From NCBI GenBank assembly GCA_003439945.1, contig QVRM01002489.1, positions 496,001-560,000 on the forward strand: a DNA stretch of 64,000 bases, given 5' to 3'. A program made the position numbers and the translations under genes. Shown piece after piece: positions 11,759 to 53,770 of the stretch (positions are counted from its first letter, which is position 1; each line of letters begins with the position of its first letter). Source of the DNA: Dermanyssus gallinae. Taxonomy: Eukaryota; Arthropoda; Arachnida; Mesostigmata; Dermanyssidae. The notes under the pieces are model-generated. The model was not told where the DNA came from and searched no databases. It saw only the letters and a program-made list of their open reading frames with translations.

Positions 11759-11935
11759 TCGCATACGCTGCTGCACTGGGGATACAGCTCGAACAGGCCC
11801 AAAGAGTTCTCTGTATCGATCCATTTATCGTACACTACGTATGCACACGAAGTCCAGGAGAGCTCCGTCCTTGCTGCGAGCCAGAACGACTTTTTCGAAG
11901 TTTCAAAGACCTTTTACGGCATGGAACGGAATTCT
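11759..11935 (+). CDS. ABCA-like transporter, tentative exon at the end of TMD1
   Basis: Open frame of 59 codons between a plausible acceptor (TACGTTAG) and a strong donor (T followed by GTAAGTAG). It leaves one base of a split codon, and the next recognised exon at 12994 begins with the two bases that complete it, so the phase fits. The peptide is not itself a recognised domain; it would lie in the last extracellular or loop part of the first transmembrane domain, just before the final helix. The evidence is therefore splice signals, phase and position, not homology. Confidence 0.45.
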
Positions 11936-12993: not shown

Positions 12994-13603
12994 ACCACAT
13001 ATTCGTCTTGCTATTGGCTCTGCAACTGGTTGAGCTCATTGCCATTATGCTGGGATTCTACGTACCACGGCTATATGTAAGGACGCGCAGGTATCGCCGG
13101 CGGCGGGCACGAGCAAAGGAAATCAGCGAGCTGCTAAATCAGCAAGTGCTTTATCTAAAGAACGATTTGCACGAGACGCTGCTTCGAGAGAAGGCAACGC
13201 TTACGAAGGGCGCGCTGGACCGTCTGCTTAAGAAGGGCAGCATTGTTTTAAAGGACGTTTGTCTGCGCTTGAATACAACGCAGGTCTCCTTGCTTAATCT
13301 CATAATCGAACCAGACACATGTACAGGTATCATTGGCTTGGACGGATCCGGTAAGAACGCCGTTCTTAAAATGATCCGGGGAGAGCTAACGCCGGAATAC
13401 GGGGAAGTGTACGTGAATGGCGTTTCTAAGTGTTCTCCGTCAACCATCGGTTACTACAGCAAGTCAATCGAGCTACCAGATATACTGCGACCTATTGAAC
13501 TTTTTCTAATCTACGCTGAACTTCGAAAGGTTCCTGTGGTGCTTCGCCGTCGAGACATTCATATCTTGTCTGTAATGTTCGACCTACACGAAAAACTCTA
13601 CAC
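12994..13603 (+). CDS. ABCA-like transporter exon: last TMD1 helix, linker and first half of NBD1
   Basis: The acceptor is TTGTAG at 12993 and the donor is CAC followed by GTAAGTAG at 13604. The frame begins with a hydrophobic helix (VLLLALQLVELIAIMLGF), then a VPRLYV segment and a very basic stretch. The nucleotide-binding domain starts near SIVLKDVCL and has a Walker A of GLDGSGKN, where the usual final Thr/Ser is Asn. It continues through GEVYVNG and GYYSKSIEL, where the Q-loop Gln is replaced by Lys, to LFLIYAELRKVP. These blocks appear in the order and spacing of ABCA NBDs, which hydrolyse ATP to drive lipid or sterol export. The exon ends in phase 2. Confidence 0.88.
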
Positions 13604-14127
13604 GTAAGTAGCGTAAGGGCTTTCAAAACATGTGTACCAATTAGATTAAAAAGTTCGTAGCGTGGAATACATTAATATATTACTATATTTTTGTTTACGT
13701 AGCAATATACGGACACGTACTTTTTATTGCTCAGCCGTTGCCTAACGATCCTCAGTAGCCTTTAAACACCGAGCAAAATAATCCGAATCTTTGGACCCAT
13801 TGTACTGGTCTACGGCGCATATTACATCTCTGTTGCCGAGTCTGATATCCTTTTTTAGAGAGACTCTTGAGGTTTGCAAACCAATTAGATGACTTTGTTT
13901 ACTGTTGTTTTTTTGTTTACGTTCTCACCGGTGCGGACGTGTTCGTGTGTGGCTTTTGGAAAGTATCTCTTTAGTGCAGAAATCCATAAGCATTCGCAAG
14001 CTTAGCAACCTTTGAGACCAGAGGAGCTGACTAGCGTGAAACTTTGTTGCTAATTTTGGTGCGCATTTGCTATACGTGCAGTGTAATTGGCTGCGCTAAA
14101 CATCAGGTTAGTGCATCAGCGGTACAC
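13604..14127 (+). other. Intron start, no element recognised
   Basis: Beginning of the roughly 9.8-kb intron between the Walker A and the signature-motif exons of the ABCA-like gene. It starts with GTAAGTAG. Nothing coding or repetitive was seen before the retroelement ORF1 start at 14128. Confidence 0.5.
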
Positions 14128-15760
14128 ATGGTGGTGAAACGTTCACCTTCGCCCGCCGCTCCTCCTCCGAGATCGCCGGCCGCCGACACCGCCGGTGTGT
14201 GTGGCATCATGTGGCGAGGAGGACGCAGAAGACAACCGAATACGTGTTCGAGGCTCTGCTGGATCCAACGGTGATAGTGGCACCAGCATCGGCGTCGTTG
14301 ACACGTCTGTCTCGGTCGGTTGTGGAACGGAGAGAGTGCTCGACGCAAGTGGCGAGAGGCGGGGAAGCCCTGGAGATAGTGTGGCCGCTGCTAATGTCGG
14401 GGAAAGGGCAGCGCTCTCTAAGAGAGCGGCAAATAGCCCACTACAAAGTGGCAAACCGGCGAAGACGCAAACGGCACGAGGATGCGCTGATGCTGATGAT
14501 AAATCCATAGATGATGCGGGGTCTGATACAGATGGTAACGGCGCCAAGGAAGCAGAGGACTGTAGAACTATCATTTTTGGGAAGAACAAAGTGGCGGTCG
14601 AGGGCGCTCTTCTCGATGATGAATCCGACGAAGGGTAGAATAAAATCGGACCAAAGGGGAAAATTGTTGCAAATCCAGTTACGATACAGAAGAACATCCC
14701 AACTGTTTGCGCGAAGGAGAGAGCCAAAGCAATAATTGTCTCCGCTGTAGATAACTTGTTGGAGTCAAACTTTAATGATGTATGTGACGATATCGTGAAG
14801 CATATTAAAGGCAAGGTAGAAGAACCGCGCTTTTCTCGAGCAGGGGAACTAATTATCGTTGCGGAAGACATTGAAGACCGGGCCACTTTGCTCAGCTTGC
14901 AGACACTAGGAGGGGTGGCTGTAAGCGCCAGGGCTAGTGGCTCAAGATTAACACTTAAAGGAAAAATATTCGCGGAGGTTCGCTTGGGCCTTAAAACCCA
15001 TGGCGTTACTCTCTACCGGGAACCTCTACAGTGCTATCGATGCTACAGTTTAGATCACATAAAGCCTGATTGTCCATTGAGGCCCCTCGTTGTAGACGAT
15101 GCAGATCTACGAACCATTTGCGAAAGCATTGCAAAGACGCAGCGCGATGCTGCCTATGTAAAGGCGGCCATGAGGCCACCTGGGGATCGTGTACCCATCG
15201 CTTAAATCGCATGGAACTTCTTAAGAAATTTGCTATCCGCGTAATTCAGCAAAACACGGATACCGCGCCAGTTACTCTCCGTCAGAGTCATTTAGCAGAC
15301 GCAGTTTTGCTGCGGTCGTACAGAATGTGATCAAGGTACCGCAGAAAACAAGCGTTCCGCCAGCCGAGGTCAAAATTGGGCCAGCAGCACCAATCTCTAC
15401 GGCGGCCAGTACCACAAGCGACATGGTCATAGCCTAGACGCAATGGTCATGGCGGTATCCGCAAAGGTCATCCCTCAAATAATCGACGCAATCATGGTGC
15501 AAATTGGAGAGATCATTTATTGAAGAGGTGGTCTCATCCGTCCTTCCGGGGCTGCTCGGCACACATGAGTCGCTGACTTAATCTTCGGCGTCTTCTGCGA
15601 AGCCGCTAACCTCCAATCTACGCCAACAATTGGAGAAGGCCATTAATGCTGTACTCAACCAGAGTCCGCCAGCGCCGCTGCTTTCGGCGGAGTCCAGTGC
15701 GAGGACTCGAGCCTCGATAGGAGAGCCTGAGGGGACAAACTCGCAAACACCATCATGTTA
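14128..15760 (+). pseudogene. ORF1 with CCHC zinc knuckles of WLQALPS-family copy 6
   Basis: The start ATG at 14128 follows GGTACAC, and the N-terminus is Pro/Ser-rich. A frameshift leads to 14195-14638, an acidic low-complexity stretch. 14756-15205 has LLESNFNDVCDDI, EDRATLLSLQTL and the first knuckle CYRCYSLDHIKPDC. A further shift to 15070-15330 gives the second and third (CRRCRSTNHLRKHC and CCLCKGGHEATWGSC). These match block for block the ORF1 on the minus strand at 30588-32086, so the same ORF1 type is present in two different elements. It would bind element RNA; broken here. Confidence 0.75.
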
Positions 15761-15929
15761 AATGGTCAATCAGATATAAGGCACTGGCTTACTTCATCCG
15801 TTCAACCACAAGCAACAGCTCACACTGACGCCACTTCGACACATTCTTCAAATCGCTTCTCCGTCACAAACGCACACTCTTAAGCAAACCCGCCAGGAAA
15901 TAGCTTTCCAACGTACGTATCAAAGGCTG

Positions 15930-18298
15930 CCGCTATCAAGTCCAAAGTAAAGATGATATCGTGCATTCCCCGTAGTAGAGCAAAGATTGTGCAGTCAAAG
16001 CTGTCCCAGGGGGACGTCTCTTCCGCCGCTGTTTTCTACAGATCAGACTGCCCCAATCGACGCAAATACTAGAGCAAGTTTATTGAAAATGCACCCCGCA
16101 CATTCCACGGATCCAGCGTACCCTGAGGCGCCGACGCCGGCACCCCCAGCATCTGAAATTGATGTCACGACTGAGGAGATTCGAATCGCCATTAGAAGTT
16201 TTTCAAGCAGTTCTAGTGGCGGTCCGAATGGTCTTTGCCCTCGGCATCTGAAAGATCTCATAGGTTGCCGCCAGGATTATAGCAACCCTCTGTTGCAAGC
16301 GTTACGTCACTTCGTTATTCTAGCAGTCAACGGGCGACTTCCAGAGTTCACGCTATCCACTTTTTACGACGCAACATTAATCGCTCTACGAAAAAAGGAC
16401 GGGGGTATTCGGCCAATCGCCGTGGGGCTTACCCTGCGTCGACTGGTTGGTAAGATTTTAATGAAAATCGCTATGAAGGCTATTCTTGAGTAAGTGACTT
16501 CCATGCAGCTAGGGTGCGGGATAAAAGGATGAGCAAAAGCGGCTGTGCATGCGGCCGCCGCTTTCATCAAATCGAACAGAAGGCTAGGAAAAGCTCTAGT
16601 CAAGCTCGACCTTCGAAATGCCTTTTACATGCTTCGTTGAGATCACTTACTCAATGCTGTAAAAATGTTGATACCCGCTATTTACCCAGCTGTATTCCAG
16701 ATGTATAGACTGCCCGCTAATCTTCTGTGGCAAGGGGAGACGCTTAAGTCGATGTGTGGGGTACAACAAGGCGACCCGTGTGGGCCAGCCCTCTTCTGTA
16801 TCGCTATCGCTGAACTACAGGCGAAGCTTCGATCGGAGTTTCGACCGTGGTATCTTTTTTTTCTAATAATATACATATTTATTCAACATATATTTAGTAC
16901 AGAAATATGTCTCGACGCTCGCAATGGGCCTTAAGGCCTGTGGCACTGACGTCGAACGTCTTGATGACGCAACGCTGGCAGGTGACCTAGCAGCAATCCA
17001 GGCAGACATCAAGACTGTTCAGGAATTTCAAGTGTGTTCCGGCTTAACACTCAACGCAAATAAATGCGAGCTCTTGCTACTGTCAGAGGAGCACCGCGAC
17101 GAGCCTATTTCAAGCTTGCGGGGAATACTACCCGACATTCGATTAGCAGCCGAAGACAATATCGAGCTTCTAGGAGCCCCCCTTAACGATGCGGCGCTGG
17201 AGGGTGTACTGCGCAGAAGACTTGTTGAAGTCAGCCGATGCTGCAGCAGACTTCAAACCTTAGGTGCTCACCCGGCGTTATACCTCTTGCGACAAACCTT
17301 TTGCGTACGGGACTAGAACGGCTACTTAACGTTCACCTGGGATCTGCATCCTGGGCCCAGGCATCACTTCCTGTAAGCGCGGGGGGCTTAGGGATTCGCC
17401 GTGCTAGGGAGTTATCATTATCGTGCTACTTGGGATCCTTGACGACATTTAAGGATTTAATACTTTCGATTGGAGTTGAAGATACCCCAGTTCAGCTGGC
17501 CAGGGCCTCCGATGAGGCCCTGGAGGAGTTTCGAGTTTGCTGGGGAGAGCCCCGCGAGCGAAAAACTCAGGGAGCACTGGACCACTTGGTGGTAAAATAG
17601 AGGCAAGACGCGCTTCCAGCACAAATTTTAGACTTAAAAGGAAAAGCTCGCTTGAAGGCCTGTTTTGATCCAATGAGCGGAAAGTGGCTGCAGGCCCTTC
17701 CTTCGCCGCAACTGGGGACGATGCTGGACAATAACACACTTCGCATCGTCTCGGGTCTGCGGCTTGGGGAGGCTGTCTGCGCAGAGCACGTCTGTAACCT
17801 GTGTAAGTCCAAAGTTATCGCTGTCCTGCCGGTTCAGTGCCGGTCGCCATTCAAGTCATTTCGCCATCAATGATGTCGTACAATGTGATCTGCAGAGCCC
17901 CCAGATTCCTTCAATGAGATAGCACCATGGGAACGGGGTCGTCTGCTAGTGTGGGACGCGACGGTTTCATGTACACTCGCCAACAGTTACATTGCGCGCA
18001 CAAGTCGGGAAGCTGGCGCGAGCGCACGTCTTGCTGAAAGTCGCAAATTGTCGAAGTACAGGGAGCTCTTGCCGCAATACATCGTTTAGCCGATCGCCGT
18101 GGAAACGCTAGGGCCAATGGCAGAGGCGACCGTAGAGTTCCTCAAGGAGCTTGGAAAGAGGGTAACTGCTGTGAGAAAGGATGCGCGAGGTGGGGAGTAC
18201 CTGGTGCAGCGTATCTCCATAGAAGTTCAACGTGGCAACGCAGTGGCGGTAGTGGGGTCGCTTCCATCGCCGGTGGAAGGACTGCCAGAAATGCCGTA
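15930..18298 (+). pseudogene. Reverse transcriptase ORF of WLQALPS-family copy 6, broken at the active site
   Basis: 15987-16493 has GGPNGLCPRHLKDLI and KKDGGIRPIAVG. 16665-16850 has GVQQGDPCGPALFC. About 100 bases of A/T-rich sequence (roughly 16855-16950) then separate RPWYL from the LDDATLAGD part of the polymerase motif, which resumes in 16924-17316. 17238-17600 holds the ASLPVSAGGLGIRRA block, 17652-17873 the [15 protein letters not shown] module, and 17930-18298 the LVWDATVSC, ETLGPM and VQRGNAVAVVG blocks before a TAG. At least six frames are needed to follow it, so it is a pseudogene, but it shows the full order of the family. Confidence 0.85.
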
Positions 18299-18360
18299 GC
18301 AGTAACAACTATTATTTGACTATTACCATATGAAACATTAAATAAACTTATCGTACTCTG

Positions 18361-18645
18361 AAAATTAGATGACACGGGACGAAGCCCAATGAACATCGAG
18401 ATACTCGATATTTTCGAACTTTAATTTGTTTAATTTGGCGATGTTGGGAAAAAGAGGAGGTGGGCAAACGCATTGTCGTGGTGAGACTGCACAGTCCTGT
18501 TCTGCATAGCGGAGTCGTAGTGCTTCGATGTAATTCTTCAGCTGGCCCAAGGGTGTGTTGCGTAGTTCCTGGACCTAGTGCCTTGAGTTATGCCCCAGCG
18601 GGCTGTGCATATGTTCTTACATCACAAATGTATATACACTACACT

Positions 18646-18647
<2 letters not shown>
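18361..18647. other. Unassigned intron sequence
   Basis: No gene or element recognised. It lies between the end of WLQALPS copy 6 and a TA repeat. Confidence 0.4.

Positions 18648-18685
<38 letters not shown>
18648..18685. repeat. (TA)n microsatellite followed by CAGGGTG
   Basis: About 38 bases of TA repeat. It runs directly into CAGGGTGTTTTAAGAATA, which looks like one end of a TIR element flanked by TA, but no matching inverted end was found before 19200. Confidence 0.85.
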
Positions 18686-18688
<3 letters not shown>

Positions 18689-18740
18689 GGTGTTTTAAGA
18701 ATATTTTTGAAGCGATACATGAATTGTAGCAATGTTTAAG

Positions 18741-18770
18741 CTTCTTAGAGACCATGTGGTCTCTAAGAAG
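18741..18770. repeat. Perfect 30-bp palindrome (14-bp arms, 2-base centre)
   Basis: CTTCTTAGAGACCA is followed by TG and its exact reverse complement. The stem would form a stable hairpin in RNA or single-stranded DNA. Wider flanks (AATTGTAG...CTACAATT) are also loosely inverted, suggesting the centre of a decayed fold-back element. Confidence 0.8.
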
Positions 18771-19171
18771 TATTGTTTTGGAATGAGAGTTAAATTACTA
18801 CAATTGGTGACACTGGTGTCTTTGCCCGACATAGGAGCATAAAATGTGCTGTTGCGAGACAACCAATCCTCCTATACAGAAACACACCGTCGTGTTCGTG
18901 GTGATTAATGGCACAAATGTCTGCTTCTTCTGAAGAACATTTAAGGCCGGTCAGAAGATGTGATATGGTCGCTTAGAAGAGAATTCGCAAAAAATGAACT
19001 ATTTTATTAGTTGTCACTCCAAATACATCAAAATCACTACACTACGGCCACTAACGGTGCTCAACTAGCACACAGGCAAACGCACATTTCGTGACGATCA
19101 TTTTCGTACTAAATCTATGTCAATGCGAGCTGTGGTTACGGAGTAATTACGATTTTTCGGAGGACATGTCG

Positions 19172-19196
19172 ATATATATATATATATATATATACA
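19172..19196. repeat. (TA)n microsatellite at the mariner 5' junction
   Basis: Short TA repeat immediately left of the mariner target site. It gave the transposon a TA to insert into. Confidence 0.85.
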
Positions 19197-19198
19197 TA

Positions 19199-19228
19199 CG
19201 AGGTGTGTTCAAAAGTATCGCGACTTTT
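19199..19228 (+). repeat. Left terminal inverted repeat of the mariner
   Basis: Starts CGAGGTGTGTTC and ends in GCGACTT. It is matched by the inverted right end at 20488-20516 and is the presumed transposase binding site. Confidence 0.9.
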
Positions 19229-19402
19229 GAATTTTCGCAGGTTACGTATATTTGAATTTCGATTTTATGTGGCGTTATGTTGGTACTCATGTCTCTCACT
19301 TATGCCGACAAGCTCGGCCATTTTGAATGTTCACTTAATTGTTGACAGCTGCTTTGCTTGCACGTGTTTTGGATCGTCTTCGATTTTTACCTATTCAAAA
19401 AA

Positions 19403-20464
19403 ATGGATCAAAGAACCTGTATCAAATTTTGTGTGAAAAACGAAATTAAGTGCGCGGATGCATTCCGAATGTTGACTGTGGCATACGGAGAAGCTACCTT
19501 GGACCGAAGCAACGTTTATCGGTGGTACAAAATATTCTCAGAAGGCCGAGAAGATGTGAACGACGAAGAGCGTGCCGGACGCCCGAGCACTTCAACAACA
19601 GACGAAAAAATTAATGAAGTGGAGAAAATGGTATTGGCCAATCGTCGAATCACCGTTAGAGAAGTTGCTGAGGACCTAAACATATCGATTGGCTCGTGCC
19701 ATTCGATTTTTATCAATGATTTGGGCATGAGACGGGTCGCCGCGAAATTCGTACCAAAATTGCTCAATTGCGACCAAAAACAGCATCGCATGAACATTGC
19801 TAATGAGATGTTGGACTCTGTCCGCGACGACCCAAATTTGCTCCAGAGGGTCATAACTGGTGACGAATCGTGGGTTTATGGTTATGACGTGGAAACCAAA
19901 GCTCAATCATCTCAATGGAAGCTGCCGCACGAACCAAGACCGAAAAAAGCGCGCCAAGTTCGGTCGAATGTGAAAGTTTTGCTGACAGTTTTCTTCGATT
20001 GCAGGGGCGTGGTGCATCATGAGTTATTGCCACAGGGTAGAACGGTCAATAAGGAATATTACCTGCAAGTTATGCGCAATTTGCGCAAAGCAATCCGCCA
20101 GAAACGCCCGGATTTGTGGAAGAACAAAAATTGGCTTTTGCACCACGATAACGCCCCTGCTCACACATCGTTGCTTGTGCGAGAGTTTTTGGCCAAAAAC
20201 AACACACTAATGCTGCCGCAGCCACCGTATTCCCCAGATCTGGCCCCCTTTGACTTTTTCTTGTTCCCTAAACTGAAGAGGCCCATGAAAGGACGACGTT
20301 ACGCTACGCTTGACGAGATAAAGACGGCATCGAAGGAGGAGCTGAACAAGATAAAAAAAAATGGTTTTTTGAAGTGCTTCGAAGATTGGAAAAACCGTTG
20401 GCACAAGTGTATAATATCTCATGGGGATTACTTTGAAGGGGACAAAATAGATATTCATGAATAA
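19403..20464 (+). CDS. mariner transposase, 353 codons, intact
   Basis: The frame is open from further upstream, but the ATG at 19403 (AAAAAAATGGATC) begins the sequence expected for mariner transposases, MDQRTCIKFCVKNE, and gives the usual length of about 345-355 residues. Residues 1-110 form the two helix-turn-helix DNA-binding region, with YRWYKIFSEGREDV and DEERAGRPSTSTTDE. The catalytic domain has TGDESWVYGYD, HHDNAPAHTS and YSPDLAPFDFFLFPKLK; counting from the second Asp to the third gives 34 intervening residues, the DD34D signature of mariner. It cuts and pastes the element at TA sites. No stop or frameshift was seen, so it may be active or recently active. Confidence 0.95.
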   Translation: MDQRTCIKFCVKNEIKCADAFRMLTVAYGEATLDRSNVYRWYKIFSEGREDVNDEERAGRPSTSTTDEKINEVEKMVLANRRITVREVAEDLNISIGSCHSIFINDLGMRRVAAKFVPKLLNCDQKQHRMNIANEMLDSVRDDPNLLQRVITGDESWVYGYDVETKAQSSQWKLPHEPRPKKARQVRSNVKVLLTVFFDCRGVVHHELLPQGRTVNKEYYLQVMRNLRKAIRQKRPDLWKNKNWLLHHDNAPAHTSLLVREFLAKNNTLMLPQPPYSPDLAPFDFFLFPKLKRPMKGRRYATLDEIKTASKEELNKIKKNGFLKCFEDWKNRWHKCIISHGDYFEGDKIDIHE

Positions 20465-20487
20465 ATGAATAATTTTTGAAAAAACAC

Positions 20488-20516
20488 AAGTCGCGATACT
20501 TTTTGAACACATCTCG
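20488..20516 (-). repeat. Right terminal inverted repeat of the mariner
   Basis: Inverted copy of the left end, from AAGTCGCGATAC to the outer CGAGATG (inverted), followed by the TA target duplication at 20517-20518. Confidence 0.9.
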
Positions 20517-20524
20517 TACATATA

Positions 20525-23085
20525 CATATATCGACAGCCGACACCGAAATAGTCGGTGTTTGGCGCCAATGAGTACGGACGTATGTATACGGAGCTCCGA
20601 GTGGTTACGCTTGCTTGTGTGAATGCAAGAAAGGAAACGCAGAGAGTGGCACACCGTAGTGGTGCGCGGTTCGGTGACGAAACGTTCGGTGATCATTTCG
20701 GTGTATTGTGCGTGGCCGTGTGACGAAGGGGCAAGGAGTTAGGCCGCAGTAAAATTTAGTTAAGACCTTTACAGCAGGGTGAAGCAAAACGAAACCACCC
20801 AAGCAGGCGTCGAGAGTCTACGAGCGGTCCGGCGCGCATTCAAATTCAAACTATAACGGCCTCTCAGCTAAAGTGAGTTAACACAGTGTTTAGGCGTCTT
20901 TAGGTGAGTGCACAAACTTTAATATGGCAAGTAATGCCGGATCATCGCCAGGTGGGGTAGGGTCAACGAACCCAAAGGATTCAACTATGAATCTTCCAGG
21001 CCAAACGCGCAGTGGCAGCTTAAGATACGTGCCGGCCAGTTCACTATCAGTATGCAATTGTGGAAGAGTATTAGAGAAGAGAAAGGTTACTGCGCGCAGT
21101 AAGACATGGTGCGATATAACACAAGCTATGCAGGATCACTGGCAAAGCATTATAACAGATGTCCAGCAGAGGCTAAAAAAATCGAAGAGAGAGAGGCTCA
21201 AGTTGAGGAGAAAGAGAAGCGCGCAATGGTCTTACAGCAAGAACTGGCTGTAATGATCGAAGAAATATAGCAACGGCATATTAGCGACAGCAATGAAATA
21301 GTGGTTGAACTGAGAGAAAGGCTGGCTGCTGTTGAGGAGACAACGTCAACCGTGGCGGCAAATGTTGAAGAAATGGAAAAATGGATCCGGGAAAAAAAGA
21401 ATGAAGACGGGAGGCGCGCCGTTGAAGACGAGACAGTACTGTTAGACTTGAGCCACAGTGGCGAAGAGGAAGAGAAAAGAGATGACGAAGAGAGCGGAGC
21501 GACGGAGGCGGAAGTATACAGGAGACGACAACAACAGAGGAACAGAAACGAGATCGCCAGAGGAGATGCGCAGATGCGCGTGGAGAGGAGGGAGGAGGCG
21601 AGTCAGCGAAAGGAAGAAGAAAAGGTGCTAGCGGTCGAGAAACAGCAGCAGCAACATCAAACGCTACAACAACAACAACAAAAGCAGATATCCCGGATAA
21701 GTTCAACCGATCGAACAGGGGAGGCGGTGGCTATTAGACCAATGGGAAAACGGGTGGTAGTTGCCGGAGATTCAAACGTATGCAGAATAGAGGAACAGGT
21801 TAATCAGGTGGCTACTAATACAGGGGGGGGGTTTATTTTATTTCTATGGGGGGCCAAGGAGTAAGGGATATTGTGGCAGCAACTAAGCAAGCTATTAAAA
21901 TGTACAATAATGTAAAATATAGGTTGGTGTTTCATGGGGGACTGGAAGATGTTTTTCAGGCCCGGGATATGGAAAGTGCTGTGAATACGATTAGCACACA
22001 GTTACAAGACCTAATAGAATTTTGCAAAAACGTAGTGTTGACAGTGTGTTTGCTTCCAATGGTGGTGAATGCTAAAGAAGGACGGGACTATCGGGGTACA
22101 TGCAGGGCAGTGAATAGGAAGATAATGCAGTTGGTCAGGGCAGCAAATTACGAATACTTGTCTCTTGAATACATTTAAGACAATCCAAGGGCCATGGCCT
22201 CTGATGGAGTGCACTACGGGGCGGCAGGTGCTGTACTAGCGGCACGGCCAATTGGCAAGAGGGCGTGCGATTGGCACAATGTTAGGCCTATAATAATTAA
22301 GGTAATCAATGCGCAAGTAGGACATACGGGAACGGAATACGGTAGGGGGACGCAGACGTGGAATCAACAAAATCGGGTCAGCGCAAATTTTTCAGGCACG
22401 CGGTATGAGCATTTAAAGGAGAGGGGAACGGTAGGGTACAGACACAGGCACACAGGATGGGACAACAGATACAGGGACAAGAGAGAGAGGAGGAGACAAT
22501 ATGGATACAGGGAAGAGTGGGACAGCAGGTGCAGGGGGAATGACGACAACGGGAGCTACTTCCCGAGGGAGGGGGAACACAGAAGCAGTGAAGATCAAGG
22601 GGGCATTGGAGGTAATCAGACGGTTGGCCATCAGTGGCATACAGAGGAGGAGATAAAGGTTGACGTAAGATCTAAGAGAGGAAGCAGGGCAAAATGAAAC
22701 GTGCAAGGAAGTTGAGATTGCTAAAATGAAAGCGGGAAAGGGGCGGGGTAGAATGGGTATACGATAATTCAAGAGCGAGTGGGCTATTGGCAGATGCCGG
22801 GGCAGGGATGTTGGATACAAGGATTCATAGAGTTAAATATAAGGAGAAGCAGAGTACAGAATGTCGAGCATGTGGGCTAGAGGATGAGTCAATCGAACGT
22901 ATTAATAAAGAATGTATAGCCTTAGGGGGGGGGGCAGAGATATAGATCAGTAGGCATTGAAGTAGACATGAATTATATGGATGCGTAGGTAATATATATG
23001 CTGCCGCCCTAAGCGCCCCTGATATAAAAGGGGGACATGTGTATTTAGGTAGACACGCCAAGCGAACAATAAATCAATCAATCAA
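20525..23085 (+). mobile_element. Retroelement with an SGNH/GDSL esterase-like ORF1
   Basis: 5' leader from about 20525 contains a hairpin (GCCGACACCGA paired with TCGGTGTTTGGC). The ORF1 frames follow and the sequence ends in a tail of AATC repeats (AATAAATCAATCAATCAAT) near 23085. The esterase domain in an ORF1 is known from CR1-type elements and, as I recall, is abundant in tick genomes. No reverse transcriptase is present in this copy, so it is either internally deleted or a non-autonomous derivative. Confidence 0.65.
20924..22697 (+). pseudogene. ORF1 with coiled coil and SGNH esterase-like domain, frameshifted
   Basis: 20924-21253 starts with ATG and includes a CNC segment. 21301-21864 begins with a coiled coil rich in Glu/Arg/Gln and a run of CAA codons, then enters the esterase fold at RVVVAGDSNVCR, with GDS carrying the nucleophilic Ser. 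21846-22178 has HGGLEDVF, the second conserved block (usually GGLNDV), and MVVNAKEGRDY. After a stop near 22179, DGVHYGAAG supplies the catalytic Asp-x-x-His block, followed by an Arg/Gly/Tyr-rich tail to 22697. The triad residues are present. Two breaks (about 21260 and 21850) and the stop at 22177 make it a pseudogene. Confidence 0.7.
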
Positions 23086-23431
23086 TAATTCCCGGGTTAG
23101 ATAACCCGTAACCACACGTTAACGCGGAGACAATTGTTCACTCCAAAGTGCTAACATAAAAAGTAATTTGATAAATGCATATATTATCAATCAATATATA
23201 TATATATATATGGTAAAGTTGATCCGGTGTAAGCAGTTATAACTCCAAGGAATGGTGACATCTTATGGTGTTCTCTTACACATTGTCAATTGCGAGAGCT
23301 TTGCTGGGCTGGAAGTGGTTTTATTTCGTCACACTAACACTAATATCGTGGTTTTATTTAATCGCACAGGGACTAATATAATTTGCCACTAACACTTTTT
23401 GCTTTCGGATGTCTTTGATTACTAACAACAG
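23086..23431 (+). other. Intron end before the signature-motif exon
   Basis: Contains a short TA repeat (23194-23212) and a 7-bp-arm palindrome CGGGTTA...TAACCCG near 23093. Nothing coding. It ends in the acceptor ACTAACAACAG at 23431. Confidence 0.6.
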
Positions 23432-23592
23432 AAAGCTGTTGCTACTATCCGACGGTCAACGACGCCTTGTGTCAGTAATGTCCGCATTTGTCGGCAAGCC
23501 GAGCGTCATTCTGCTTGATCAGCCGACCGCCGATGTCGACACCTCGACAAAGGAGACCATCTGGAGGGCTGTTTCGCATTTCAAAGGACACT
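23432..23592 (+). CDS. ABCA-like transporter exon: signature motif and Walker B of NBD1
   Basis: Acceptor AACAACAG at 23431, donor ACT followed by GTATGT at 23593. The first base completes the codon split at 13603, so the phase agrees over a 9.8-kb intron. The peptide carries LLLLSDGQRRLVS, where the ABC signature LSGGQ has Asp in place of the first Gly, then PSVILLDQPTADVD, a Walker B in which the catalytic Glu that normally follows the Asp is Gln. IWRAVSHFKGHC follows and matches the IW..L..... segment before the switch region. It would form the ATP sandwich face of NBD1. It ends in phase 1. Confidence 0.9.
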
Positions 23593-25162
23593 GTATGTAC
23601 CTACTCAAATTACGCCAAATACAATAGAACTGCTAAATAGCATGTCAGCTGCTGACCCCGGCCTGTCAAGCCGCTGGTGGACGCGCCAACACGGGTTTAA
23701 ACAGAACAGGATACACTGATTGACTCCGTTTCTTTTTGTAATAACAAAAAAAACAGTTTTTTTTAATTAAAAATGCTCTTATGCGCACCCCATGCGTGGT
23801 GCAGAACAGTGCTGAAGGTCCAACGTTGTTGCAGGTGTCATTCTAAGTCTTCCGTGTGGGCTCGTTGTTTAATGAACGCTGTGTAGCCGCAATCTAGAAT
23901 TGAAAACATTTCTTTTGGGGAGGTTGTTTTTAATTCTAGACTATCCTCCGTCCTCTACGGGTTTGAGTGAGGTATATATTTGCACCGAGGGCCGAACATG
24001 TTGCAATATCTAGGGTTTCCCAACAGTCATTGTGGCAGCATGGCCGCTGACTGACTCTCGGCGCTATAGTGTATCATCTATTCTCAATGAGCATCGCTTC
24101 AAGAGAATTCAATTTTCAACAGAGATCGAACCGGCGACACTTTGGTAGATGACAACCATGACTAGTACACTAGTCCCCTAGAACACGCCGTGCGTAGCCA
24201 CTATCCTGACTTAATTGTTCTGTATAGCCAAATTTAAACAAATAGCAAGCATTGATAATGATCTTCTTTATGTACGCATGGAACTGCCTGTGGCCTGTAC
24301 ACCTGTGTGAGCCAAAATATACTTTCTTCACAATAAGTCTTTACGTACTACAGACTTACGTTTGCTGTTAGGTGTCTGTTTTATCTTGTGTTGGATATTT
24401 CTACGGCTGCTTTCCCTCCTATTATACCAACCTTTCGCGGATGTCCTTTCGGGCCTGTTTCTGCTTGTGCGTTGTATCCTTCATCCTCTCGGTCCTCTTC
24501 CCTACCGCCAAACCCTGATTACTACTGATTCTATAGACTGGCGTGCGTACATCGTTCTTAGTACATCTCTATAGCACAATAAGTAATAGTTATTGCATTC
24601 TAAAGTTTCCCCTGCATAGTTCAAAGAATCAGCATATTGGTCTCAGTAACTTTATGCAGTTTGTTTCTAGACAGCCAATGTGCTGTATCATTGTTATGCT
24701 GTACATAACGCTATTCTTTTGCCTTATGAGCAAATTCGTTAATCGTTGCTTAACCCTTATCCGAGATATTAACCGTTTTTGCACACATCATGTGTGTCTA
24801 ATACGTTTCATTTCTTAATACTGTTGCGTGAGATGCTTTTGTCTACGTGTAATCCCCAAGCACTCTAACTGAAGCGAGAAAACGTCTATAAAATAAACAT
24901 ATTTTTAACGCAACGTTGATCTAGCCAAAAATGCAAACGTTTCTACCTCGTAGACAGATTAAAGACAAGTTCGCTGCCCTTCAATCTATTTTAGCACGTA
25001 TTTGTGTTGAGCTTCCTTTCTTGAAATATAAAGCTTCGATTTGCTAACTAAGTATCGAATTCATAAAGATTGTGAGCGCTTTACATTATGCTCATATGAC
25101 CAGAGCATGCCTCTTGTGTTTTGTGTCTGATTGGCCTGGCCGCTAGTTATACGCCGAGATAG

Positions 25163-25166
<4 letters not shown>
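23593..25166 (+). other. Intron, no element recognised
   Basis: Start of the 2.3-kb intron between the Walker B and switch-loop exons. Short A/T-rich open frames (for example 24362-24574 and 24543-24818) have no recognisable content. Confidence 0.5.

Positions 25167-25206
<40 letters not shown>
25167..25206. repeat. (TA)n microsatellite
   Basis: Forty bases of TA repeat within the intron. Confidence 0.9.
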
Positions 25207-25208
<2 letters not shown>

Positions 25209-25901
25209 CGGATGTTTCACTATTTCGCTTATATATTTTCTTCTGTTTTTCACTGTAATACCTGCAACACATATTATAAAAATATATAACTTAGTAAGTT
25301 TGTGCAAGCTTCGTGCACAAGCCAAGCACTCGAAAGCTTCTTGGACAAAGAATTGCATACAAGTCATGCACGTTTTTTTGTCGCTGCAGCAATTTCACTA
25401 ATTAGTTTCACTTGAATAAGCTTTCTACAACGACAAACCATTTCCGTATTGGTCATCAATTCAAATACATATTTGTAGACTATGTGTAATAAATTCTGAT
25501 CAATCACCACTAACGATACTGCTAGTAAATCAAGGGTTCAGCAGTTGAAGCTAGAACGATAGACTCGTCATGCGCTGTTTACAAAGAAGGTTGTGATTGG
25601 GTCGAGCTACTCTAGCATGGTTTACTCTAAGAGAGAAGACCAGTATTATTGTATACGGTGGCGGGAAATTCTGGGCGCATTGTTCAAGTCAAAGAAAGGA
25701 CTTGCGACCTTATTAAATGTTCATGGTGGTGGTTTCGGGCTCTGCGAAAGAATTGTAGTCATGTTTTACTTTTGTCTTAATTGTGCTAAGACAAATTCGT
25801 ACATGTCTTCTTCTATTAAAATTGCTTATTGTTTATAGGATTTACTGGTAATTGCTGCGACTAGACCAGTGTACGTATGTTATATGTCGGACGTGTTACA
25901 G

Positions 25902-26075
25902 GCACGGTGGTAGTTGCAACAGACACACTTGACGACTTCGAGCGTTTTGGTTTCGATAAGAGCGTGATAATGGCTAACCGAGAAGCAAAGATGATCCTCA
26001 AGCGCAAAGAGCTCGAGCAGCAAGTGGGCCGCGGCTATTCACTCACCATTAAGGTCCAGAATCCCAGCGAAGCAA
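25902..26075 (+). CDS. ABCA-like transporter exon: switch region and C-terminal lobe of NBD1
   Basis: Acceptor GTGTTACAG at 25901, donor CAA followed by GTAAGAC at 26076. The first two bases complete the codon left by the previous exon. The peptide begins TVVVATDTLDDFE, aligning residue for residue with the conserved TIVLTTHFMDEAD switch region of ABCA NBD1; the His needed for hydrolysis is Asp here. It continues with DKSVIMANREAKM, KELEQQVGRGYSLTIKV, the well-known ABCA block (usually LK..FG.GY.L). Ends in phase 1. Confidence 0.9.
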
Positions 26076-26193
26076 GTAAGACATAACTGCAAAAAAAGAC
26101 ATGCATGTTCGTTTATTCAACCAACTCGATCTATATAATGTTAAATTGACTACTGGTGTCGACTAGGGCAATGTTTAGCTCTATTTTAACAGC

Positions 26194-27659
<1,466 letters not shown>

Positions 27660-27699
27660 AGTCTGAATCAGTGGTTTTTCTGCGTCACCGGATCTTCCC

Positions 27700-30584
27700 T
27701 CATCTTGCGAGTTCAGCTATTGATTGCACTGCTGGACATGCTGCGGCGTGGTATCTATCACAATGGCCTAAGCATCTCGCGCACCTACGACACTCCTGCG
27801 GATTGTGGAGTTCTTGTGTGCGGCATAACACGTGATGGAACCCGTGGGCTGCAAATGCCGTAGTTAGATGCCTTTTCTTATATCCGGCTGCTCGCCAGGT
27901 TGTACTCCTCAACGCTATCGTCGTGTATATACCTATGCCTTTATCCTTTAATTTTTCCCCTTACTTCATAGTGTAAGCCACGAAGGCCGTCGTCTTAGGT
28001 AAACCCCGTTTTACTTGTAATTCCTGTGTCATAAGAGCCCCCCCTTCTAATATATGAACTATTCTATTTCCTACAAGAGTTAGCTAACCCCAAAACCCGC
28101 TTCATGAAGAAAAATCGAACTTTATCTAGTAACTGTAGATCTGCCTCTCCTAATTTCTCTAATATAAGTGATACACCAAATGTTGCTATTGGTTCTATTT
28201 TAATCTTGAAAAGGGCGGACGCGGTATGTATTGACAACATTTGCGGGTTTTTAATTGCTGCTGCCGCTCTAATGGCTTTTCCTACTCTGCTTTCAATATG
28301 TTTTTGAAAACTGCTACCATTTGACGTTATAGTGACCCCTAAATAGTTAAATTTATTTACAAAATTTACTGTATTACCCCTGGCTCAAAGGACATCGTCA
28401 TTCGCCAATCGTCCTCCTCTTCGAAGATTTACTGCTACTGTTTTTTGCCATTACTACTAAGTCCCATCTCGTCCATATAATCGATTAGCCGTTCTAGTCC
28501 CTGCTTAACCCTAAATACACTCCTGCCATAGATCGCAATGTCATCTGCATACATTAATGTATTTGCCCACTCTCGGGTCCACCCCTGCCTCACCCGGTTA
28601 GGTGGCCCTCCCAATAGTACCGAAAAAAGCAACGGGCTAAGTCCGTCTCCTTGGGCCACGCCTGTAGTTTGCTTTACTCTTCCCACAATCCCCATACCGT
28701 TGTCGATGTATACTGTAGTCTCCCCAAGAATGGTACTTAAAAGTTTTAGTAAGCGATACGGAACTCCCTCCAAGGCTAACTTTTCTATAATCCTACTTCG
28801 TGGCGCTAAGTCAAAGGCAGCTTTAAGGTATATAAATATTGCGTATAACGGTCTTCTAGGTTCTGATAGAGTTTCCCAAATTTCTGCCAGCAACTGGCGC
28901 AGGGCCGTATAGGTCGACTTCGACCTTCTGAACCCATGTTGTTCTTCTGGTATTGCGTTTCTGGTTTCGAGGTAATGCTCTAGTCTATCTGATATTGTTC
29001 CCGAGAAAATTTTATAGGGGCAACTCTTAATTGTTATGCCCCTCCAAGATTCCGGCTCGGTTTGTATGCCTTTTCTTTTGTTATGACAATCAAGATATCC
29101 TTTTTCTACGCTTTTGGTACTTCCCCGGATTTTAGGCACTCGTCAAATAAAGCTTTCCAGCATGGTGCAAGTGCCAGCGTTTGCTTTAAATGCTCGTTTC
29201 GTATCATATCGTTCCCGGCAGCATTGCCTCTAGGCGCCCTTTCAGTTGCCCTGACAACGTCTTCGATTGTGACTGGTCGAATTACCCATTTCCGTACAAG
29301 TTCTGTTTCCTCCTGCTGAATAATGTTATTTCCTTTGGGGTATCGGCCCCCTGCAGCACACTAGCAACGTGCTTAATTAAACGCCCAGTCTCCACTGGGC
29401 ACTGCCGTTTTCTGTTCTGTTGTAGCCACTTGTGTGGTTGTTTCTCAGCTTCTTGCAAAAGCACCCACTCCTGGCTTTCCCAATATTTTTGTTTCTCTTC
29501 CTTGTTTGCCTTTTGTGTCATTTTATTTACCATACTTGCAAACGGCCTTAATACAGGAAACATCTTCACATATTCTCTAGTTAGTCTGTTGGCACCTTTC
29601 GCTGCTCTACACCGATCGTTGAACCAGGGCCTTCCTTTTCGTTCTTGGCGAGGAACCAGTGCACCTTCTATCAGATTTGTCAATTTACGCTCATATGACT
29701 CTATTTGAATCTCCCCTGGTGGGCACACTTCCCCCACTCCCACTAAGAAGATCCTTTTATCTAGTCTTGTCCCGGTTCCTGGCCCACGGCTATACTCCCT
29801 ACTATTACTAACTTTGAATGCCATCCCCATCGGTATATGCCTTCTAAGCCCCACTCCTTCCCTAAATGATGTATTTTCTCTCAAAAATGTTATATCCTCT
29901 ACGTTTCCGTCGGTGGCAAAACGTTACAATTACTGACGCCCCAGTACTACATTCAAAAGTGCTTAGGCCTGGCTCGCTGACCAACCAGCCTCCTATCTCT
30001 GTTATAGTATCTAGAAATGCTTCAGTTTGTTCCAGATTACCCCTATCCAACCTCGCATTGAAATCCCCCGCTAGAATCATCAGTGCCTTTCTCGGCACCG
30101 CTTCAACTCTAAGCATGATACGCTCTGTCATGACTTCAGTGGACTCTACATCTGCCGGTTTCACATAGGCTGCCACAATTTCAAACTCCCTCGACGCTAT
30201 TGGTACTAAGTTTTCTGCTACTATTCCTATTGTCATCTCTTCAATTTCTGCTCTCGTGAATACTGAAACCCCTCTACTTGGCCTGCCCCGTCCCTCACCT
30301 TCATGTGCTAGTGCGTGATATCCGTAGAAGCCCCCCAAAGAGAAAGGTTTAAGCGCCCAAGTTTCCGTCAATATTAGAATATCCACTCCTCGAAGTGCCT
30401 CTATGCCTAACAGATCTAATACGCCATGCCCTTCGCAGTTCCACATCACTACTTTAATAACCGGTGTAAGCTTTTCTTGATTGCAGGAGAGGATATTGTT
30501 TCTTACGCTCTCTTGTGGAGTCCAAATGTTTGTATTCGGTACACTCGTGTTCATATTCTGATTCTTGGGTCCAGTCTCTCCCAA
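27700..30584 (-). pseudogene. ORF2: APE endonuclease, reverse transcriptase and Cys/His cluster
   Basis: 30584-29862 encodes the nuclease: VVMWNCEGHG, LILTETWAL with the catalytic Glu, GVSVFTR, and AGDFNARLD with the Asp/Asn pair. 29884-29282 is the linker, with RPWFNDRCRAAK. 29139-28435 is the polymerase: EEQHGFRRSKST, FIYLKAAFD (the usual FIDLKAAFD with Asp changed to Tyr), VAQGDGLSPLLFSVLL and MYADDIAIYG. 27912-27700 keeps the C-terminal cluster CRRCARCLGHCDRYHAAACP. The endonuclease nicks the target and the polymerase copies element RNA there. The Asp-to-Tyr change at the first polymerase motif and several frame breaks make this copy dead. Confidence 0.82.
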
Positions 30585-30587
30585 GCG

Positions 30588-32086: not shown

Positions 32087-32570
32087 GGCCAGCTGCTACG
32101 CCGCGTCTGTTCACAAACAGGATATTGTTTGTTTACAGGCAAACGCAGACCAATTGTATCTTCGCTCAATATAATAATATTGATTCTGGTTACCGAAATG
32201 GGGATGGCGGCAGTGGCGACGTTGATGGTGAAGTTAGTGATGGTGTCTGTGGTGAAAATGGTGATAATGGCCGTGGTGGTGATGGTGATGACGTCTATGA
32301 GTGGTAGCTAGCTGGAATGAATGATGATGAGAATGAAGATGTACTAATGATGATGACGCTTAAGATGGTATTTGATGATGAGGTATAGTAGTACTGGGTG
32401 CTGATAGTAATGATGGCTGTGGTGGTGATGATGCCGACTATAAGTCACAGCTAACTAGTGAAGGCGCAGTAATGATGAAAACGCTGAAGGCGGTAGGTGG
32501 GTTGTAGATAATAGAGAATACACAATAATGAGGCTGATGATGATGACTGAAAGTCCGATTATGGGTGTGA
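32087..32570 (-). repeat. GAT/GTG-rich 5' leader of the retroelement, shared with 39090-39380
   Basis: Imperfect runs of GATGATG, GGTGATG and similar. The part nearest ORF1 (TTCACAAACAGGATA..., 32109 onward) and the stretch around 32300-32380 both have clear counterparts at 39107 onward and 39280-39350, so this is the transcribed leader of one element family and not an independent satellite. Confidence 0.7.
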
Positions 32571-34514
32571 AAGCGTCGGTTTTCAGGTAGTAGGAGATGT
32601 AGATATTGTCCAGAGGAACTTAAACTGCATACTATCCGTTACGGCCCAGATTCACTGTTAGAAACACCGACTAACGACTGAAATAGCAACAATTATACGC
32701 ACTGTTACGAAGACACGTCAGCGCAGCTTGAACAGCTGATGAATAAAAAAAGTCATCCGTCCCTTCGGGGACACATGTATACGCGGACGTTCTTGTCGAC
32801 CGGTGCCTGGACGCGGGTCCCTGTCGTCGTCGATGTCTTGGAATTTGGGAGCCCGGACGAGAGAGTCTGGGCTGCACATTTCCTGCTGATCGGTCGCGCC
32901 GCTCTGTCATGGGCCGGGAACAGCGACTGACCGCGTTCTCGCTCGACTGCGCTCTCTAACGAAGCTAGTAGCTGGGCGAGGGAGCAGTACTTGAGATTGT
33001 GTTCTGGGTGTCTGCTGCTATATAAATACAAAAAGGCTGTGCGTTGACAGCTAGGAGAGATCTGGCACATTTAAGTCCAGGTCTCTCAAGTTTTTGTTTT
33101 AAAAAAAAGACGCCTGTTTGGTCTAGTTAATCATTTCCCATTTATGTGTTTCTGGGAATTTTCATGCCCATTCCTTCCGATTGCATTTTTTTACTACAGG
33201 TACCGGCGCGCTTTGCAACGTTTGCTGCATCTATCTGAATGGTTATTTTAATGTGGCGGTCGTTGGATTTAGTAGTTCCACGTGCTAGATCGTACAAAGC
33301 AAATGTGTCCTCTAATCTTTTTCTAAAGGAGCGCTACACGACGGCTTCTTGTGATGTTTATACATTTTGTCCATTGTATCCAAAATTCCTATCCGTGTTC
33401 CATCTATTTCGTTTCTCTAAATTAGGAACAAGGGAAAGCAAACATTAGGAATATTTTAAGTAATTTTGCGTAGTACGCCATCACTGGTTCAGCCAATGTA
33501 TCTTAGTGATTACAGTCGATTGAGCAATGGCTGTATTTTAGTTAAACAATGATGCGGACTTTTTCCACTGTCTCATACAAACTATTATTTTGTTATTTTT
33601 TGATTGGGTCCGTTTCGTGCATTGCTTTGTGTGATGGAAAATATTTTTAAATTAGCTAAAGTTGGTAAACAAAACATGCAGTGATCCAAGCATGTAGAGT
33701 CACAGGGTACAAACGAGGAATATTGCCATTTATGCATTTTCCGCAATGTAACGTCACGTGATTATGAGTATTAAACGCAGGATACGTACGAAAAGAAATA
33801 TTAGACGAATGGAATGTTAGACAATTTTTTTAGTAGCCCCGAAATTATTTTTTTTTAGTAGCCCCGAACTGCATTTGGTAAGGGTATGAGCAATATGTAA
33901 TCTGATGCAGTCTTTTTTCATGATCTAGCTGTAATTCGTTTAGGTTCATACATATGTACATGTATGCAGATGCACGTATGGTCATATGCACAATCGTTGA
34001 AAATGCGGTCCAAGCTTAAACACGCTCGTGTGCGCTTTATTGTTGTTTGCCTGCGTTATACTTCTATGTGATGTTGTGGTGCTGATCGCTAGAGAACGAG
34101 CGCCTACTTACGTCCAGCACCGAGAGTCGTGTGCTACCACGGACCCGAGACTTGATGTCGCCCATACGCGATTGGCTACTACACCGCTTGCCTAGAGCGG
34201 TGCCACTTATCGACGCCGGTACGTTCATTTATGAGTGTCACCTTAAACTAGATAGAACTACTCGTGCAACTCACTAAGACAAATGCTACCCTGTTTAGAA
34301 AGAACCTTCGCATGCTTAATCACATTATCGTCAATGTTCAATTGTCTTCAATTCGAGAAATTGGCGCAGTTATTTGCAGGGGTGTAGGCGACCCACTGAA
34401 ATGGTTAACTAAGCTAGAACATACCATTAAATTTATAATCCTTAGATTAGTATCCTTAGAAGACTATGTATATAAGTGGTATTGTGCTCAATAGTATTTT
34501 TTTTGTATTCTCAG
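32571..34514 (+). other. Intron, mostly unassigned; possible promoter-like or LTR-like block at 32700-33080
   Basis: 32700-33080 is G/C-richer than its surroundings and contains a TATA-like CTATATAAATAC at about 33018; it begins TGTTACGAAGAC, as some LTRs do, but I found no partner LTR, primer-binding site or polypurine tract. 33826-33870 has a directly repeated TTTTTTAGTAGCCCCGAA. The rest is unrecognised. It ends in the acceptor TTTTGTATTCTCAG at 34514. Confidence 0.35.
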
Positions 34515-34683
34515 GTGGGATTCTTGAGTTGCACTGCCTCGACGAGCAGACATCTGTCTCCGATCTATTTGCATTGCGTCATTTCCTCTGCAAGCAGTTC
34601 ACGTACATTAGCGAGTTTCGCATCGCGCACCTCTCAAATCAAGAAAAGCTGCGTCATTTGCTAAGCGGTCTAAGTCAAGGCAT
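34515..34683 (+). CDS. ABCA-like transporter exon: region after NBD1 core
   Basis: The acceptor TTTGTATTCTCAG at 34514 is strong. The first two bases complete the codon left at 26075. The peptide (SVSDLFALRHFLCKQF ... SNQEKLRHLLSGLSQ) is not a catalytic motif but falls where ABCA proteins have the small lobe after the GY.L block. The donor is less certain: AAGGCAT followed by GTATGC (exon end 34683, phase 2) or CTAA followed by GTCAAG (exon end 34673, phase 1); each has a matching acceptor at the next exon. Confidence 0.75.
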
Positions 34684-52966: not shown

Positions 52967-53442
52967 AAAATATTTTTTAAAAAAAATACTAGCATTGTTT
53001 ACTGATCGAGTACTAGGCCCACAAGCGGCCTAGTGAACGTCTTTCGATATGGACGCCACAACCACTACACACTTGCAGCACTGTAGAATATAACTTATAT
53101 AAATGTTTCCCGCTTCTTCTGAAAATGCAATGGCTTACAAGCTTTTTAGTCAGCGAGTGCACAAAATACGCAGTCTTCCACGCGCAGACATAAACAATAT
53201 GTCTCCGTAAAAAAAACCGTACAATAATCTGCCACACTGGGAGGCGTGGGAACAATTACTATATACGTATAAAGCCGAGTTATTACAATATTAACAACTT
53301 GTATATGCAGTTTTTTGTCTGTCAGTAAAAGGCTCATCGTGCTGCCTACCAGTTTACTAGGTGACACTACAATAATGTCATATTACTAATCGTGGTAAGC
53401 ATATCGTGGCTATACAAACTAATCAGAGTAAATATTTCACAG

Positions 53443-53702
53443 GAACTGGAAAGCGTATATTTGCCATACTTCACGATACTGAATGTCAATGGAACTATGC
53501 TGCCTCTAGACGCTTTCAACCGCTTCACAGTGAAGACGACCGCATCATTGAGTGAAGCCTATGATTTCAGCGACCTCACTATATGGATACACGAGATAAG
53601 CGATCGATCTCAGCCTAATGGTACTACATATAAGCAAGTTAACGTGAAGTCGATTTTGCTGTATGAATCTGTAAAGTTTTCCCAGCTTCGAACGGAACCC
53701 AG
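53443..53702 (+). CDS. ABCA-like transporter exon: extracellular domain of TMD2, part 1
   Basis: Acceptor AATATTTCACAG at 53442 (phase 0, matching the previous donor), donor ACCCAG followed by GTACGC. It encodes 86 residues with no membrane helix (ELESVYLPYFTILNV ... FSQLRTEP), with potential N-glycosylation sites NGT. Position between the first and second TMD2 helices makes it the extracellular loop, which is the most variable part of ABCA proteins, so homology cannot be claimed from sequence alone. It ends in phase 2. Confidence 0.65.
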
Positions 53703-53770
53703 GTACGCGGTCTGACTATATAATCAATATTTGTTACTACATAATAAGGTATGTGGACCGCTAAGTTACC

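Follow-up and report, generated by a model that had tools for sequence, protein, structure and literature searches.

The stretch of DNA analysed here, called the window below, is 64,000 nucleotides of the genome of the mite Dermanyssus gallinae (assembly GCA_003439945.1, contig QVRM01002489.1; C2485:496001-560000 in our numbering), and it contains the C-terminal half of a large gene derived from the ABCA subfamily of ABC transporters, namely the end of the second transmembrane domain (TMD2), the second nucleotide-binding domain (NBD2) and the C-terminal domain. The genome that we searched comprises 958,664,175 bases in 7160 contigs; the published D. gallinae assembly is given as 959 Mb in 7,171 contigs with 44.6% guanine plus cytosine (PMC6256547), and the window has 45.1%.

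Structure of the window gene

Guided by the Varroa proteins P0001 and P0002 and the Tropilaelaps protein P0173, we assembled seven exons that give 577 stop-free codons if the last exon is run to 34687, or about 574 with an end at 34679. All seven acceptors are AG, and all six donors between the exons are GT. In window coordinates, the first of these exons lies outside the window at -4765..-4454 (mite protein guides, AG/GT borders and phase). It is followed, all on the forward strand, by an exon for the last part of TMD2 at 11759..11935 (AG/GT borders, phase, and matches to P0001 and P0173), and by an open-frame exon with AG/GT borders at 12994..13603 that encodes the last transmembrane segment, a linker and the first half of NBD2, with Walker A and the Q-loop, at 41-47% identity to three mite proteins. 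The signature, Walker B and D-loop are in the exon at 23432..23592 (+), whereas the H-loop, which reads ATD, and the start of the C-terminal regulatory-like domain are at 25902..26075 (+). The remainder of that domain (LELHCLDEQ...FRIAHLSNQEKL) was placed by mite protein homology at 34515..34679 (+); judging from the paralogue copy1, a GC donor after 34679 probably closes this exon. The last coding exon of the gene was searched for and not found, and the first exon, where the N-terminal xLxxKN motif of the ABCA subfamily would be expected, was not found either.

An earlier note on this DNA had described good splice signals and matching phases at three junctions, 13603/23432, 23592/25902 and 26075/34515. 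GT/AG borders and phase agree at the first two, and the donor at 26075 is likewise good, but a direct splice from 26075 to 34515 is ruled out, as an in-frame exon sits between them at 34093..34218 (+), with AG/GT borders, correct phase and homology to P0001, P0002 and P0173. Because this exon is 126 nt long, a multiple of three, the phases matched even when it was skipped.

Both nucleotide-binding domains have altered catalytic motifs

Five changes in the motifs of the domain that the earlier note had listed are all present, and each falls at a catalytic position of ABCA proteins. Walker A reads GLDGSGKN at 13335..13358 (+) and ends AAG AAC, so that Asn replaces Ser/Thr; in the same alignments the Q-loop Gln is replaced by Lys (AAG, 13461..13463, +). 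The signature is LSDGQ (23445-23459, +), Walker B is LLDQPT (23511-23528, +) with its Gln encoded by CAG at 23520-23522, and at the H-loop, or switch, position His is replaced by Asp (GAC, 25922-25924, +). These positions align with catalytic residues in PDB structures of ABCA3 and ABCA4, and match the catalytic columns of 24 further NBDs, taken from 12 of 17 listed ABCA-like proteins. The spliced peptide matches ABCA3 in PDB at 4e-40 and Pfam ABC_tran at 4.6e-14; to a protein of Varroa destructor it is 51% identical, with 75% of its length aligned (5e-88). ABCA3, ABCA4, ABCA1 and ABCA7 fill the first 13 places of the PDB comparison. Against the PF00005 profile, with a cut-off of 25 bits, NBD2 scored 53.6 and 52.4 and the NBD1 of the window gene 33.4; the NBD1 of the downstream copy 4 scored 20.9, under the cut-off.

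The earlier note had taken the domain in the window for NBD1, an identity that is ruled out by the domain order of P0173 and by NBD1 exons upstream on the contig. The partial P0173 record (907 aa) begins with the end of TMD1; a degenerate NBD1 without Walker A and then TMD2 come next, and the protein finishes with a domain like that in the window. The NBD1 exons of the window gene are in phase at -41663..-41469, -37121..-37008, -34984..-34794 and -33814..-33667, approximately 47-55 kb upstream of the NBD2 exons. A half-transporter, an idea that came from a 541-aa Varroa record, was rejected because NBD1 is present both in P0173 and on the contig. The NBD2 orientation rests on architecture, because in a larger NBD tree the mite NBD2 clade joins other ABCA NBD2s at weak support (54-61).

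In the NBD1 of the window gene Walker A is absent (VSSTPLFFATFIS), the Q-loop position is Ala, the signature is LSAQQ, the Walker B Asp has become Glu and the switch His has become Lys; alignments place Thr at the switch position of the copy 4 NBD1. Walker A is missing from all three NBD1s that can be read there, those of the window gene, copy 4 and Tropilaelaps. In an NBD dimer, the Walker A of one domain faces the signature of the other: site 1 uses the Walker A of NBD1, and site 2 that of NBD2. Site 1 of the window gene has no Walker A, and in site 2 the catalytic places are occupied by Asn, Lys, Gln and Asp, with LSAQQ opposite. As NBD1 is without Walker A and the catalytic positions of NBD2 are changed, neither composite ATP site is canonical, and by sequence the gene contains no site that combines Walker A and the Walker B Glu with the Q-loop Gln, LSGGQ and the switch His.

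The window gene belongs to a tandem array

A genome search with P0173 returned 26 matching stretches (50 of 55 candidates scored). Four copies form a tandem array on the window contig, C2485, with the first NBD2 exons at contig positions 234484 (copy1), 349486 (copy2) and 508996 (the window gene), and copy 4 visible only as an N-terminal half. NBD1 exons of further copies are found on the same contig, C-terminal-domain fragments are found on C222, C5668 and C1201, and a fifth copy has its first NBD2 exon at C4115:264841 (minus). Relatives of the window gene occur in Varroa and Tropilaelaps; a protein query aimed at a full-length mite relative returned none. The array and the mite comparisons agree with the suggestion of the earlier note that this is a lineage-specific ABCA with a degenerate NBD.

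Copy 4 lies downstream of the window gene and starts at 53377 with an N-terminal exon (53377..53703, +) that probably encodes the first transmembrane segment and an extracellular loop, and is 36% identical over 97 codons to the window-gene exon at -74508..-74218. Its NBD1 is beyond the window, at window coordinates 78552-84128. The donor after its signature exon is weak (gtttgg) and no NBD2 was found in the remaining 49.6-51.6 kb of the contig; copy 4 may be truncated.

Elsewhere in the same genome, three further NBD exons (L003, L004 and L007), which we read as ABCA-like, have a canonical Walker A, indicating that ordinary ABCA genes seem to be present too. P0003 (243 aa) is a close relative, with Walker A GLAAAGKS and, like the window copy, a Q-loop Lys.

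Motif changes are layered across the family

NBD2 motifs were compared among seven members: the window copy, copy1, copy2, the C4115 copy, Varroa, Tropilaelaps and P0003. The Walker B exon of copy2 is unread and the Tropilaelaps record is without it. All seven retain the Walker A Lys. The adjacent Ser/Thr place is Ser in five, Asn in the window copy only and Glu in copy1, and at the fourth Walker A place five members have Gly, copy1 has Asp and P0003 has Ala. At the Q-loop place five members have Lys, two have Arg and none has Gln. The signature is LSDGQ in three of four readable members and LTKGE in Varroa. Walker B has Gln in the window copy and copy1, both encoded by CAG, and Glu in the other two readable members (Varroa and C4115). 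The switch place is Asp in five of six readable members, Asn in Varroa and His in none. The changes are layered, with those of the Q-loop and switch being family-wide, the Walker B Gln shared with copy1, and the Walker A Asn private to the window copy. Because the states differ among family members, the list in the earlier note mixes family-wide and younger changes.

Orthologues with intact motifs, together with a lack of transcripts, had been put forward as a sign of decay, and the mite relatives are intact only in part: Varroa has Walker A Ser and Walker B Glu, and Tropilaelaps has Walker A Ser, whereas the Q-loop and switch-His changes are common to both. Among 17 blocks of our own choosing, the most conserved is that of the H-loop and the third that of the Q-loop, with mean pairwise identities of 0.83 and 0.79 against 0.53 overall; such conservation is the opposite of decay. 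One guess is that the Q-loop base and the H-loop acid or amide of NBD2, which are fixed in the members compared, maintain a new contact.

The pattern at Walker A and Walker B raises the idea that the protein is a switch that binds ATP and does not hydrolyse it, nucleotide binding alone opening or closing the membrane part. The invariant Lys is consistent with this, as is the fit of seven of the eight Walker A places of the window copy to the consensus, and Glu-to-Gln favours a trapped ATP dimer, the CAG codon being identical in the window copy and copy1. Nevertheless, we consider such a switch unlikely: the Mg-coordinating Ser/Thr is replaced by Asn in the window copy and Glu in copy1, the Q-loop is Lys or Arg, the LSAQQ of NBD1 is without the glycine pair, and in our reading of the alignment the A-loop position of NBD2 is without an aromatic residue.

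Selection on the window gene

The ratio of nonsynonymous to synonymous differences per site (pN/pS) between the window gene and copy1 is 0.35 over 303 codons (bootstrap 0.29-0.43; nonsynonymous divergence, dN, 0.32). Against copy2 it is 0.44 over 301 codons (0.37-0.53; dN 0.37), and against the C4115 copy 0.40 over 353 codons (0.34-0.47; dN 0.37), the comparisons with copy1 and copy2 excluding the Walker B exon. Random pairing of the same codons gave 1.03-1.07. With a simple correction, synonymous divergence (dS) for the three pairs is 1.6-2.8, so that synonymous sites are saturated or nearly so, and for this reason we used only the contrast with random pairing. The NBD1s of the window gene and copy 4 gave 0.33 (0.27-0.41) over 215 codons. 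Differences between the window gene and copy1 number 100, 61 and 182 at the three codon positions over 303 codons, and are mostly at the third. Averaged over the paths to its paralogues, the window gene is under purifying selection.

In the NBD2 tree, in which the unread exon of copy2 was entered as 53 X, branch lengths are 0.243 for the window copy, 0.398 for copy1, 0.527 for C4115 and 0.601 for copy2, the window branch being the shortest among the four Dermanyssus copies compared; those of Tropilaelaps, P0003 and Varroa are 0.228, 0.330 and 0.415. The order of copies within the mite tree has weak support (64, 66). The stem branches of the mite family are long, at approximately 2.0 (NBD2) and 2.4 (NBD1) substitutions per site.

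These results bear on whether the window gene is a decaying pseudogene or a recently dead copy. Dead copies arise in tandem arrays, the Walker A Asn is private to the window copy, and that copy is known from genomic sequence alone. Against this, its 577 codons are open across seven exons with canonical borders between them, its branch is short, and the Glu-to-Gln change is found also in copy1, from which it is separated by near-saturated synonymous sites. Neither a broken frame nor relaxed constraint was found. The dN/dS check that the earlier note had proposed, run here as pN/pS against paralogues, gave 0.35-0.44 and not a value near 1, and together with the open frames and short branch this bears out its view that the domain is kept rather than decaying. 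True decay looks different in three repeats elsewhere in the genome, L028 (C222), L030 (C5668) and L039 (C1201), which contain stops and, in the two counted, show differences spread roughly evenly over codon positions. Decay or recent death of the window copy appears highly improbable.

The three repeats are about 91-96% alike and intronless, and contain a piece of the H-loop exon, a shorter counterpart of exon 34093-34218, the next exon and a last exon of copy1, which is the closest paralogue of the window gene by identity (0.587). In two of them (L039 left out), differences from copy1 number 6, 4, 7 and 5, 4, 9 by codon position over 54 codons, roughly even; this and the stops make the retrocopies look like dead sequence. 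Their lack of introns implies that copy1, or a near relative, was transcribed and spliced, a conclusion that concerns copy1-type genes and not the window copy and is thus only a partial substitute for the transcript check proposed in the earlier note. The retrocopy of the copy1 piece seems to have spread inside a larger repeat. The word ABCA is not present in the main text of a D. gallinae stage transcriptome (PMC8028124).

Comparison with known ABC proteins

The window gene resembles the ABCA full transporters (ABCA1, ABCA3, ABCA4, ABCA7 and Ixodes ABCA5) in its best PDB matches and in what look like two TMD-NBD halves as far as exons were read, the gene model being incomplete. The contig contains exons that look like extracellular loops after the first transmembrane segment of each half, and the order of domains in P0173 is NBD1-TMD2-NBD2. 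As in ABCA4, a C-terminal domain follows NBD2 in the same place; NBD2 and the next domain can be aligned between ABCA4 and the model of P0001, which has a predicted local distance difference test score (pLDDT) of 28-76 in residues 451-541. According to the portion available of PMC3724490, the ABCA subfamily has a conserved motif or regulatory domain after each NBD. Unlike these transporters, the window gene has lost catalytic motifs in both NBDs, and PF12698 and PF23321 (R1_ABCA1), which Ixodes ABCA5 matches, gave no match at E <=0.1 in P0001, P0173 or the window peptide.

Changes in Walker A or B, the signature or the H-loop are also seen in kept, working proteins such as CFTR/ABCC7, ABCC1, ABCB2/B3 and Pdr5, but exporters of this kind have one degenerate site, whereas the window gene has site 2 changed besides site 1. 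As excerpted, PMC7756269 describes ATP sites as composite, reports that Walker B Glu-to-Gln impairs transporters and that any degenerate site in full-length human ABC proteins is site 1, and notes motif deviations in some ABCA proteins. Within ABCA, the NBD1 of mammalian ABCA8-type proteins (P0183, P0246) has likewise lost the switch His, to Gln, but retains Walker A, the Q-loop Gln, LSGGQ and the Walker B Glu. A working asymmetric transporter, in which transport is still powered by one of the sites or by a partner protein and the apparent loss of activity is confined to the window copy, has such precedents: a degenerate site is frequent among ABC exporters and has been described in some ABCA proteins, and ABCC1 mutants with Asn or Gln at the site 2 H-loop still transport (PMC7756269, in the part available), Asn being the residue of Varroa. 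The Walker A Ser and Walker B Glu of Varroa and C4115 also fit it. We regard it as quite unlikely in view of the missing Walker A in all three NBD1s read, the lack of Q-loop Gln in seven of seven NBD2s and the lack of the switch His in six of six readable members.

In Tropilaelaps mercedesae, Tm_07059 and Tm_14842 group together in a clade outside the eight known ABC subfamilies (PMC5467014, as far as the text was accessible). This clade may be the family to which the window gene belongs, perhaps with P0173 as one of the two proteins. The accessible account differs from ours in making no mention of catalytic motifs, and the open-licence PMC literature searched yielded no description of a mite ABCA with both sites degenerate.

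An ABCA derivative probably without ATP hydrolysis

Taken together, the sequence comparisons suggest that the window gene probably encodes an ABCA-derived membrane protein that is unable to hydrolyse ATP and is under purifying selection. Neither composite site would hydrolyse ATP. Less surely, the NBD pair and the C-terminal domain could serve as a rigid scaffold that locks the membrane and extracellular parts into a single state, and the protein might then be an ATP-independent lipid carrier, a scramblase-like protein, a receptor or a partner subunit rather than a pump. More tentatively, and at a little under even chance, dermanyssoid mites may have a tandemly expanded family of ABCA-derived pseudo-transporters, in which both ATP sites were disabled on the family stem, the former catalytic pocket of NBD2 was rebuilt with a base at the Q-loop and an acid or amide at the switch position, and selection acts for a function free of hydrolysis.

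Several points weigh against this interpretation. The Walker B Glu is still present in Varroa and the C4115 copy; in the window gene, NBD1 retains the Walker B catalytic Glu and an aromatic residue at the A-loop place. Some family members may still bind ATP, given that Walker A Lys is kept in all seven and Walker A Ser in five. Glu-to-Gln changes and losses of the His are known in transporters in which the other site is active. The Walker A Asn is supported by one assembly, and the window copy itself is, as mentioned, a genomic sequence only. In addition, recent relaxation of the window copy alone would be missed, because synonymous sites are saturated and the paths to the paralogues long.

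Changes in both NBDs, the tandem array and the layered loss of motifs go beyond what the earlier note had described. Many ABC exporters have a single dead site; a full-size protein with both sites changed, maintained by selection and present in tandem copies, would if true provide a direct test of an engine-less ABC scaffold, for which the paralogues offer a natural series in one genome (Ser, Asn or Glu in Walker A, and Glu or Gln in Walker B). Surveys of mite detoxification genes might also wrongly include the family among ATP-driven transporters.

Mobile elements in the window

The 9.8-kb intron at 13604-23431 of the window gene contains a mariner-type transposase open reading frame (ORF) of 372 open codons at 19346-20461 (+), which matches Transposase_1 at 5e-19 and a Mos1 helix-turn-helix. 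Of nine window ORFs checked against Pfam, seven matched, mariner included, and that at 7409-9073 fell under the Pfam cut-off. Reverse transcriptase/endonuclease pieces lie in introns and intergenic DNA at 7409-9073 (-), 28438-29142 (-), 29865-30587 (-), 36268-36792 (+), 45546-46409 (+) and 58417-58917 (+), and by our reading resemble long interspersed nuclear elements.

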